Positions 5,015 through 41,947 of a stretch of 41,947 bases of DNA are shown piece after piece. Positions within the stretch are counted from its first letter, which is position 1. The number at the start of each line of letters is the position of its first letter. The notes under the pieces were generated by a model. That model worked only from the letters and a program-made list of their open reading frames with translations, did not search any database and was not told where the DNA came from. Made by a program: the position numbers and the translations under genes. Origin of the DNA: Bacteroidales bacterium (GTDB lineage Bacteria; Bacteroidota; Bacteroidia; Bacteroidales; JAAUTT01); contig JANYAP010000016.1 in the NCBI GenBank assembly GCA_025361285.1, forward strand, positions 1 to 41,947, written 5' to 3'.

Positions 5015-5190
5015 TACTAAATAATAATGCGAATTAAGGGTAAAATAATATTTTATCGACAGTTTTCTCGCTTTGCTAAGGGGCGAAAAATGGGCTTTAG
5101 CCCAAATAATATATTGATATTTAAGCTAAAGCCGAATTTGTTTGTTTTATTTTAACGAGCTAAAGCACGTTGCTAAATAAAAAACAGACT

Positions 5191-5212
5191 TTACGGATGC
5201 ACACTAATTACT
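5191..5212. repeat. Solo copy of the TTACGGATGCACACTAATTA terminal-repeat motif
   Basis: Same motif as the ends of elements at 22177-22197, 30071-30091 and 38691-38710. Confidence 0.6.
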
Positions 5213-5215
5213 TTG

Positions 5216-5425
5216 TCATTCCTCATTTGTCATTTCCTCATTAGTCATTTCTCATTTGCACATTTGTCATTTCTCATTTGTTATTCCCTCATTTTCATAT
5301 TCCCTCATTTTCTCATTTGTCATTTCCTCATTTGTCATTTCCTCATTTTCATATTCCCTCATTTTCATATTCCCTCATTTCCTCATTAGTCATTTGCACA
5401 TTTGTTGTTTCCTCATTTTTTAAAC
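5216..5425. repeat. Heptad array of TCATTTS-type units (about 200 bp)
   Basis: Reiterated TCATTTG/TCATTTC/TCATATT/CCTCATT units. Confidence 0.85.
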
Positions 5426-5470: not shown

Positions 5471-5833
5471 ATGGACGATTTTGAAAGCTCACGACGAGGA
5501 TTCATGCGAAAACTTGGACTTACCCTAGGTGCATCGCTAGTTGTAGGATCGGCAGAGGTTAATGCCACGGTAATCGACAAGAAGGAAAAATTCCCACTGT
5601 CGGCCGAACAGCATAAGTTTATGGAGCAATACGAAACCTGGATGGACGAATTTATAGTAGTTATTCGTCGTCAACGAACACATCCTGAGGATATAGCTAA
5701 TAATAAAAAAATAATAGATTTATCGGAACAATCTAAGGCATGGCAGCAACAATTGGTAAACTATATGAAAGATGAGAATTTTGCCCGATATTATATGGCT
5801 GCATCGGAGCGAATGACCAAAGAAATCGCCTGA
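5471..5833 (+). CDS. Small protein with Tat-like signal (SRRGFMRKLGL), function unknown
   Basis: 120 aa ORF with twin-arginine motif and hydrophobic stretch. Confidence 0.7.
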   Translation: MDDFESSRRGFMRKLGLTLGASLVVGSAEVNATVIDKKEKFPLSAEQHKFMEQYETWMDEFIVVIRRQRTHPEDIANNKKIIDLSEQSKAWQQQLVNYMKDENFARYYMAASERMTKEIA

Positions 5834-10496: not shown

Positions 10497-10797
10497 GTAG
10501 GGTTGTAAAGGTTATAGAGGTTGTAGGGATTGTAGGGTTGTAGGGTTGTAGGGTTGTAGAAGTTGTAAAGGTTGTAAAGGTTGTAAAGGTTGTAGGGGTT
10601 GTAAAGGTTGTAAAGGTTGTAAAGGTTGTAGGGGTTGTAGGGTTGTAAAGGTTGTAGGGGTAGTAAAGGTTGTTATAGGAGTTGTAAAAGTTATAGAGGT
10701 TGTACAACATTTACAACCAATTTTTACAACCTTTACAACCTTTTTCTACAACCTTTACAACCTTCTTCTACAACCTTTACAACCTTTACAACCTTTT
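10497..10797. repeat. GGTTGTAAA-type 9-bp tandem array that switches orientation at palindrome GTTGTACAAC (10699-10708)
   Basis: Many GGTTGTAAA/GGTTGTAGG units followed by TTTACAACC units on the same strand. Confidence 0.93.
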
Positions 10798-11780: not shown

Positions 11781-12359
11781 ATGGTACTACCTCAAATTAA
11801 GAACGAAAAATATAGCTACGCCGACTACCTTACTTGGAACGACAACGAACGATGGGAAATTATTGATGGCTTTGCTTACAATATGAGCCCTGCCCCAAAT
11901 ACTAAACATCAAACAATTGCGGTTAATATTGCAAGCGCTTTTCATAGTTATTTAAAAGGAAAACCATGCAAAGTTTTTCCCGCTCCTTTCGATGTGAGGC
12001 TAGCCAAGATAGGAGCCCCCGACGAAGAAATTGAGACTGTGGTTCAGCCCGACATTTCTATTTTTTGCAACCCTATGAAACTTGACGAAAAGGGAGCCAA
12101 AGGAGCTCCCGATCTGGTTGTGGAAATATTATCGCCATCAACGTCGAAAAAGGATATGGGCGTAAAAACACTTCTGTATCAACGTTATGGGGTGCGAGAG
12201 TATTGGATAGTCGACCCCGTTTCCGACACTATAATGGTTTATTTATTAGACAATTCCGAAAAATTTAACTTAATAAACGAATACAAAACAACCGATAAAA
12301 TAACGGTTTCTATATTTCCCGATTTAGATATTGAACTTTCGGATGTGTTTGAAAATTAA
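11781..12359 (+). CDS. Uma2/DUF820-family putative endonuclease
   Basis: YADYLTWNDNERWEIIDG...VVQPDISIFC...DLVVEILSPSTSKKD...REYWIVDP. Confidence 0.9.
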   Translation: MVLPQIKNEKYSYADYLTWNDNERWEIIDGFAYNMSPAPNTKHQTIAVNIASAFHSYLKGKPCKVFPAPFDVRLAKIGAPDEEIETVVQPDISIFCNPMKLDEKGAKGAPDLVVEILSPSTSKKDMGVKTLLYQRYGVREYWIVDPVSDTIMVYLLDNSEKFNLINEYKTTDKITVSIFPDLDIELSDVFEN

Positions 12360-12376
12360 ACATATAGCCTAACTAG

Positions 12377-13516
12377 CTACTGCCGCATACCTTCCATTAA
12401 TAAATTGAGATAATTATCGCGATTAATAAGCTGAAATTCACCATTATACTCGCTTTGCCACAATTTAGGACACACAGCCTTCGCTTTCGACATCTTTATT
12501 TCGAAGCCGTTTAATGCACCATCGCCTTCCTCAACATAATCTATTTCGGCACCAGTGTAAGTGCGCCAAAAATAACATTGTACATTCTTTTGAAGGTAAA
12601 ACAGTTGTTTACGCCGTTCGGCAACAATAAAATTTTCCCATAAATTTCCGCTATCAATGCGTTCTCTAAGTGGCTTTAGATTGTCAATTAAGTAATTACG
12701 AATACCTGTATCGTAAAAGTAAATTTTATCCATCTTGGCAACTTCTTTGCGCAAATTTCGGCTATATGCTGGTAATCGGAATATTACAAAAGCCTTTTCG
12801 AGTAAATCGATATAACGATTCACTGTATCGCGGTTTATTAATAACTTTTGCGAAAGCTCGTGCACCGAAACCTGTTGACCCACCTGAAAAGCAAGCAAAC
12901 GAAGTAAATCGCGAATCTTTGCAGTATATTTTACGCTAGTAAGTTGCAATACATCTTTAAAAAGATACGATTCGCAAATATCGCCCAAAATATTGCGTTT
13001 CTGATTAACGCTACTTGTATAAACTTCAGGATATAGGCCATATAAAAGTATATTTTCCAGTTTCTGGTCGAGTTCGTAGTTGTTTAAATCCTTTGCAATT
13101 TCGCCCAAAGCAAATGGAAGAAGATGAAACACCATTTTCCGACCTGTTAAAGGTTCGGCAGTTTTGTTTGCCAAATCGAACGACGATGAGCCCGTGGCTA
13201 TTACCTTTAAATGAGGCATTTCGTCGTACAACACTTTTAATACCTATCCAATATCGTGTACTCGTTGTGCTTCGTCAATTATAAGTAATTGGTAGCCTTC
13301 GGTTAAAGCCGAAAGTGTGTTAATATCGCGCTGCATCAGCAGAGTTTCGTTTTTGGTAAGGTCGGCCGAAATGTATAGCCATTTTAAACCCGAATTTTTA
13401 CCTATCTGCTTGGCCAATGTAGTTTTTCCAGCTTGACGCGGACCATAAATAAGCATAATTTTTCTGCTCGACGAAAGATGATAAAGGCCTGCCTTTTCTA
13501 TGTGTCTAGAAATCAT
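12377..13516 (-). pseudogene. AAA+ ATPase with C-terminal DUF4143, interrupted by one in-frame TAG (13244-13246)
   Basis: ORFs 13244-13516 (Walker A GPRQAGKTTLAKQ, LLIIDEAQ) and 12377-13234 (VIATGSSSFDLANK, DUF4143) share one frame: ...RVHDIG-TAG-VLKVLYDEMPHLKVIATGSS... Confidence 0.88.
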
Positions 13517-13533
13517 AGTACTTTATTTTATCG

Positions 13534-13541
13534 CAAATGTA
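13534..13541 (-). promoter_or_regulatory. Bacteroidetes-type -7 box TACATTTG of the ATPase/DUF4143 gene
   Basis: TTG (13563-13565)-N21-TACATTTG on the minus strand, 18 bp upstream of the start codon. Confidence 0.55.
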
Positions 13542-13556
13542 CTAAAACTTCAGAGT

Positions 13557-13716
13557 AACCACCAATTTTAACGCAAATTTTTATGATTAACCATAAATTT
13601 TAACGCGAATTTAGATATGTAACCATAAAAATTGGTGCGAATTTTGATGGCTAACCATAAATTTTAACGCGAATTTTGGTGGTTGGCCATAAAAATTAAC
13701 GCGAATTTTGGTGGTA
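13557..13716. repeat. Five exact-length 32-bp tandem palindromic repeats (AACCATAAATTTTAACGCGAATTTTGGTGGTT-like)
   Basis: Units at 13557, 13589, 13621, 13653 and 13685, each 32 bp, with AACCA...TGGTT-type ends. Confidence 0.93.
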
Positions 13717-41393: not shown

Positions 41394-41756
41394 ATGCTAT
41401 ATAACACTAAATCAGTAAACTATCTGTCACTTATTCCCGTTCGGGCTGTAGAGGAATTTACTGAAACCGAAGAGCGAATAACGCTGCTAATACCTAAATT
41501 TAAACATCGCATTTTTCAGAAGCTTTTTATACCGAGGCATAAATCGCCGCATTTTCGCATTCATTTAGATAGTATTGGAAGCCAAGTATGGAGGCAAATA
41601 GATGGATTACAGAGCGTTGAAATGATTTGCTCGAAACTTCACGAAGGTTTAGCCGATGAAATGTTATCGATTAACCAGCTTGAAGAACGTGTAACTACGT
41701 TTCTTACCGAATTGTATAAGAGTAGATTTGTAACTTTTAAGGGAAAGATTTTATAG
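41394..41756 (+). CDS. PqqD-family small protein
   Basis: [32 protein letters not shown]...[15 protein letters not shown]. Confidence 0.78.
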
Positions 41757-41947
41757 GTTGAAGAGGTTATAAAGGTTATAAAAGGTTGTAGAGGTTGTAG
41801 AGGTTGTAGAGGTTGTAAAGGTTGTAAAGGTTGTAAAGGTTGTAAAGGTTGTAAAGGTTGTAAAGGTTGTAAAGGTTGTATAGGTTGTAAAGGTTGTAAA
41901 GGTTGTAAAGGTTGTAAAGGTTGTAAAGGTTGTAAAGGTTGTAGAGG
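41757..41947 (+). repeat. GGTTGTAAA 9-bp tandem array, runs off the window end
   Basis: About 20 near-perfect units starting at the PqqD-like stop codon. Confidence 0.95.

Follow-up and report, generated by a model that had tools for sequence, protein, structure and literature searches.

In toxin-antitoxin systems, autoregulation depends on the antitoxin, which binds palindromes in its own promoter, often at several cooperative sites. Autoregulation of this kind is also mentioned in a report on RptR, a repressor of a phage-defense island (PMC12255303). RptR, a small all-helical protein, acts as a separate regulator on neighboring restriction genes, and its site is a 6-bp palindrome contained in 9-bp repeats. 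Among AAA+ proteins, a C-terminal winged helix is found in Orc1/Cdc6, RuvB and Sso1545. PDC-S01, a phage-defense candidate in PADLOC made up of single-gene AAA_14-DUF4143 ATPases, is described in PMC12988326 as the fourth most common defense system in prokaryotes, with 29,494 systems in bacteria and 9,986 in archaea; it is an ATPase fused to a member of the PD-(D/E)XK superfamily, experimentally unvalidated like most PDCs. In the passages of PMC12988326 that we covered, we found no mention of promoter repeats or of regulation.

Here, we analyzed a stretch of 41,947 nucleotides from a Bacteroidales genome (the window), in which an array of palindromic repeats directly precedes a gene of this type. 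The encoded protein matches the PADLOC PDC-S01 model PDLC04789 over nearly its whole length (E = 1e-137, residues 1-373), with its role in defense being that of a candidate only. We argue that the array is probably an operator through which the ATPase controls its own gene, and that many related genes across phyla carry probable operators of the same layout and of different sequence.

The array and the gene that it precedes

The 160 bp at window positions 13557-13716 consist exactly of five contiguous 32-bp units, as identified with TRF and a repeat finder (Table 1). The pairwise identity among these units averages 0.75 (0.66-0.84), and their inter-unit matches average 24.0 of 32 positions, compared to 9.0 ± 0.8 in 2,000 dinucleotide shuffles (z = 18.4; shuffle maximum, 12.2). 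The period is sharp: self-identity, 0.77 at lag 32, is only 0.37 when the lag is 31 or 33. Palindromy within the units is imperfect, with 9, 7, 12, 10 and 10 of 16 pairs matching in units 1 to 5, respectively. In a preliminary description of this DNA, the region upstream of the ATPase gene had already been read as five tiling palindromic units, which our calculations bear out; its array start, given as 13531, should be moved to 13557. It had also placed all units on one face of the helix. While the 32-bp period fits this idea, an additional dyad lies between neighboring units, so that a second dyad recurs every 16 bp. The array is therefore better seen as ten 16-bp half-sites of alternating orientation, with a consensus on the gene strand of about G-C/T-G/T-AAATTTTTATGGTT. 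Finally, the TTG proposed as a -33 element does lie inside unit 1, at the proposed 21 bp from the -7 box.

Table 1. Coordinates of the array, the candidate promoter elements and the ATPase gene in the window.
Feature	Position	Strand	Remark
Candidate -7 element TACATTTG (TAnnTTTG)	13534..13541	-	25 bp before ATG; array dyads in 16-bp register with the box
Candidate -33 element TTG	13563..13565	-	Within unit 1; consensus match only
Operator unit 1	13557..13588	-	Inverted pair of 16-bp half-sites; overlap with the -33 element
Operator unit 2	13589..13620	-	32-bp repeat unit
Operator unit 3	13621..13652	-	Strongest palindrome, 12/16
Operator unit 4	13653..13684	-	32-bp repeat unit
Operator unit 5	13685..13716	-	Farthest out
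ATPase gene, 5' part (AAA_14-DUF4143, P-loop)	13244..13516	-	Stops at in-frame TAG
ATPase gene, 3' part (remaining AAA domain, winged helix, DUF4143 (PD-(D/E)XK-like))	12377..13234	-	

Reading on the minus strand from an ATG at position 13516, the ATPase gene runs into an in-frame TAG at its codon 91. In the single read-through frame, AAA_14 (Pfam E-values of 4.9e-13 and 8.6e-8 on the two gene halves) is followed by DUF4143 (3.7e-43). Given the in-frame stop, this copy is probably a recent pseudogene, and its array may now be without a cognate protein. Within this genome, the closest paralogue (contig C93, locus L138), which has a palindrome at its promoter, likewise has a single interrupting TAG, located in the Walker B region; in both genes, the stop falls in the first third. 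We considered whether TAG could be a sense codon, as two paralogues are interrupted by it, and rejected this option since TAG ends 10 of the 23 long open reading frames in the window. In three further homologues (L142, L170 and L203), the frame that begins at the chosen start is also short, at 55, 85 and 21 aa, respectively. Such broken genes may reflect either frequent loss of genes of this type or assembly error.

Other features of the surroundings are recorded here for completeness. Convergent with the ATPase gene lies a gene for a putative endonuclease of the Uma2 family (positions 11781-12359, plus strand; Pfam PF05685). Long simple tandem arrays of 9-bp units (GTAGAGGTT, ACAACCTTT, AAAGGTTGT), which are intergenic and recurrent in the genome, occupy window positions 10497-10787 and 41744-41947 and are also present on contig C93 (L138), while an intergenic 200-bp array at 5212-5419 consists of nested 7-, 15-, 22- and 70-bp repeats of the TTTCTCA type.

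Repeats and promoter register among relatives

The preliminary description had suggested looking for upstream repeats at homologous loci. For this comparison, we used 2 sets: 79 promoters of homologous loci in genomes of the same order as the window (Bacteroidales), called the order set, and 61 loci from many phyla, fetched separately from GTDB species genomes and called the GTDB set. The latter species genomes contain relatives of about 50% identity in Chloroflexota, groups of Patescibacteria, Omnitrophota, an anammox planctomycete, KSB1 and Caldiserica, among others. About half of the family promoters, namely 52% of the order set and 56% of the GTDB set, repeat at a lag of precisely 32 bp, as judged by 17 or more identical bases out of 24 within the 150 bp before the start codon. 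Among 288 promoters of neighboring genes, every lag stayed below 5%; as this comparison predates the removal of DUF4143 paralogues from the controls, their presence can only have weakened the contrast. We then scored direct or inverted repeats against shuffles, after removing 23 DUF4143 paralogues, found with a profile built for this purpose, from the controls and rerunning the comparison. Repeats with z > 3 occurred in 73% and 74% of family promoters versus 16% and 24% of the 2 control sets, leaving about a quarter of family promoters without a repeat at this threshold; promoters of other DUF4143 paralogues had them in 63% of cases. In addition, a 32-bp repeat directly before the gene could be recognized by eye in the printed sequence of a Treponema saccharophilum plasmid and of one IMG/VR contig, both of which came from separate searches.

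The controls themselves pointed to the same association. Six control promoters with a repeat of 31 to 33 bp turned out to belong to DUF4143 ATPases of other subfamilies, with a best spacing of 33 bp in 4 of the 6, which amounts to an unplanned rediscovery of the pattern. At the level of sequence, little is shared: a loose pattern search across 198 genomes of the order returned mostly unrelated single sites, although one of its hits (L018/L052) proved to be the promoter of a 50%-identical homologue. Spacing and layout are conserved among relatives, while the operator sequence is not, and the unit of the window is not widely shared.

The dyads are also placed at fixed positions relative to the promoter. 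Measured from the first base of the TAnnTTTG box in relatives that have one, dyads (at least 11 of 14 pairs) are centered at about 0, -16, -32, -48 and -64, and the window dyads, at -15, -47, -79, -95, -111, -127, -143 and -159, follow the same register. Phase-locking to the -7 box in 16-bp steps had a Rayleigh p of about 1e-12 in the order set (54 dyads) and about 1e-6 in the GTDB set (20 dyads); these values assume that dyads are independent, and taking one dyad per promoter gives 6e-9. Family promoters carry 0.86 (order set) and 1.0 (GTDB set) dyads each versus 0.10 in controls, in which the ten dyads found had a phase p of 0.06. In the TTGACA-like promoters of other phyla, the palindrome often adjoins or overlaps the -35 element (e.g., L187, L173 and L194); phase-locking was not significant in this small, mixed set of sigma-70-like promoters. 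A register fixed to the -7 box favors an operator over a repeat that is simply carried along with the gene.

Private sites, the candidate binder and competing readings

We consider it probable that the array is the autogenous cis-operator of the DUF4143 ATPase (PDC-S01), bound cooperatively by the winged helix of the ATPase itself in such a way that polymerase is blocked. Three findings are those expected of an autogenous operator: the dyads cover the gene's own core promoter in a fixed register, the site is restricted to that promoter, and the product has a predicted DNA-binding domain. In the mechanism that we propose, the alternating 16-bp half-sites offer a dyad axis every 16 bp and identical dyads every 32 bp, or about three helical turns, over an array that spans the -33 element and is held in 16-bp register with the -7 box. 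The winged helix, at about residues 198-250 when the protein is read through the TAG, would bind as dimers. With a dyad every 16 bp, protomers could pair across 2 different axes, so that dimers could spread along the array, and the 32-bp repeat would put equivalent dimers on one face of the helix, at intervals of about three turns. The simplest outcome at a promoter would be cooperative autorepression: RNA polymerase would be blocked by the spreading dimers, and the gene would be kept low until it was released by nucleotide state, by a signal of infection or by titration. The bound array might instead activate the gene, or serve as a resting platform with a second role in sensing infection.

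The restriction of the site to its own promoter is seen in several genomes. When we searched the 3.2-Mb genome of the window with the unit pattern, allowing up to 3 mismatches, all five matches lay within the window array. Exact sites of the generic core GNAATTNGCGCNAATTNC in 12 other genomes all lay just upstream of DUF4143 genes (4 of 4), while sites with one mismatch were partly elsewhere, in a chance-like manner. The preliminary description had proposed that the units are an operator or a nucleoprotein scaffold, possibly bound by the C-terminal domain of the ATPase itself, and had named 2 observations that would speak against this: homologous loci lacking the repeats, or units lying mostly away from DUF4143 genes. 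Neither was made, and its reading is supported, with the ATPase as a candidate binder. Paralogues within a genome have sites of their own. Among the nine DUF4143 genes in the genome of the window, several (L009 and L013) have different repeats directly before the ATG. A metagenome-assembled genome of an anammox planctomycete (G206, the source of L185) has 40 DUF4143 matches, mostly full-length, with a strong palindrome in 15 of the 27 promoters read. One pair excepted, these palindromes are mutually unlike (mean best 22-mer match of 14.9, versus 14.4 when shuffled), and a G206 palindrome is unique in this 7.6-Mb genome; the paralogues of G206, with their differing promoter palindromes, are a natural set of insulated genes. 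At locus L177, extra operator copies lie downstream of the ATPase (5088-5153 and 5696-5754) with no intact DUF4143 gene after them; these look like the remains of decayed neighboring cassettes. Across 147 loci, we found no conserved neighbor family within 1.5 kb, including no small partner; the commonest neighbor was another DUF4143 ATPase (21 loci), and the next family reached 6. With private sites and no conserved neighbors, there is neither a regulon nor a linked regulator.

The presence of a dyad array at a promoter is not enough to tell what binds it, and an unlinked host regulator, whether repressor or activator, could bind the operator in place of the ATPase. We regard this as unlikely, while giving it more weight than the other alternatives below. 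No such regulator is linked to the gene, and the pattern tracks the gene across phyla. Moreover, as sites differ among paralogues in one genome and occur only at their own promoters, a separate dedicated regulator would be needed for each gene. What speaks for an unlinked regulator is that covariation between operator and protein, which the preliminary description had suggested looking for, is weak. Operator similarity does drop as protein distance grows; however, once the rest of the protein is allowed for, the partial correlation with distance in the recognition region is just -0.13 (0 of 300 permutations). One link concerns residue 229, with which the recognition helix begins, and half-site position 13: proteins with R or H tend to have G in the operator, and those with K tend to have A. 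Of 7 independent contrasts, 5 agree with this link, 1 disagrees and 1 is a tie (p = 0.11), for a column picked by eye, making it a suggestive lead only. A phylum-wide search for further close homologues, with which to extend the covariation analysis, yielded only seven genomes. An unbiased scan of residue-base pairs did not clearly single out the winged helix (0.22 of the top 50 pairs, versus 0.14 expected), and an all-pairs coupling scan, dominated by near-invariant columns and phylogeny, was not relied on.

Self-binding by the ATPase is instead what we infer by elimination, given that the sites are private, that no regulator is linked to the gene and that its product has a predicted DNA-binding domain. 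This domain appears in a structure predicted from 51 aligned relatives (mean pLDDT of 91), which consists of an AAA+ domain, a winged helix and a C-terminal sheet. The predicted winged helix-turn-helix comprises helices 198-210, 218-225 and 229-241 and strand 245-250; a match to HTH_11 is weak and below its cut-off. The C-terminal sheet has conserved residues D326, E339 and K341, and may be read as PD-(D/E)XK-like, which agrees with the description in PMC12988326. Among solved folds, Foldseek ranked 2fna (the archaeal AAA+ protein Sso1545) first, followed by RuvB and by Cdc6/Orc1 on origin DNA, at TM-scores of 0.5 or below and about 13-19% identity. For the family, we found no solved structures other than those of generic P-loop relatives.

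Alternatively, the array might be mainly a loading or effector site and only secondarily regulatory. It could be a platform for assembly of the AAA+ protein, in the manner of a centromere or of iterons, or else a DNA sensor in cis or the target of a nuclease. The AAA+ and winged-helix combination with Orc1/Cdc6 and RuvB among its structural neighbors, the PD-(D/E)XK-like C-terminus with its conserved E and K positions, and arrays of up to five or more units, which is beyond the need of a simple repressor, are in line with such a role. Yet many members have just one or two dyads, over the core promoter and in a fixed register, none of which loading would require, and we judge this reading to be rather improbable, slightly more so than an unlinked regulator. 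Considerably less credible is that the repeats are ends of a mobile element, i.e., sites of transposition or integration that move along with the gene. Operator and gene do appear to travel together: in 2 loci of one genome (L067 and L068), a block of 93% identity begins 162 bp ahead of the ATG and ends at the stop codon, with nothing shared beyond, and L141 and L143 have only array and gene in common. However, the window unit occurs upstream only, with no matching 3' end, downstream copies having been seen only at L177 as an exception, and the register of the dyads with the -7 box would be left unexplained. Hardly worth entertaining, finally, are an RNA-level element (an attenuator or processed hairpin), for which the palindromes could form hairpins, although in the window the -7 box, and with it the expected transcript, comes only after the array and Rfam gave no match near the gathering score, and a chance AT-rich tandem repeat, which the shuffles and the neighboring promoters exclude.

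Extending the autogenous-operator reading to the family is much more tentative. PDC-S01/DUF4143 genes, of which there are tens of thousands in bacteria and perhaps archaea, might be self-addressed, with each ATPase polymerizing on a private lattice of alternating 16-bp half-sites at its own promoter. Protein and operator specificities would then co-diversify, dozens of paralogues would be insulated per cell, and the promoter complex would be the resting, and possibly sensing, state of the system.

Comparison with known systems

In the literature that we covered (full text, outside subscription journals and preprints), no published account of DUF4143 promoter operators was found, nor of AAA_14 together with inverted repeats; DUF4143 itself came up in an Argonaute expression study. 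A private DNA address for each gene provides the first concrete ligand to test for the PDC-S01/DUF4143 family. The operators also offer a means to find and group family members and a simple reporter of what switches these genes on, as well as natural protein-DNA pairs for the question of how specificity diverges among paralogues in one cell.

Compared to RptR, the DUF4143 operators come with no separate regulator, and have a half-site of about 16 bp, a period of 32 bp and a sequence that differs from gene to gene. With Orc1/Cdc6, RuvB and Sso1545, the modeled ATPase shares the AAA+ domain with a C-terminal winged helix, whereas it has an extra C-terminal PD-(D/E)XK-like domain, and we saw no sign of a role at origins or junctions. 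Toxin-antitoxin systems have an autogenous promoter operator, as we propose for the ATPase; the DUF4143 ATPase, in contrast, is a single gene with no conserved small partner. Autogenous operators and defense repressors bound to repeats are therefore known already, RptR being the closest case, while what appears to be new is a defense-candidate ATPase that is seemingly its own regulator, acting at a private, periodic operator found across phyla.
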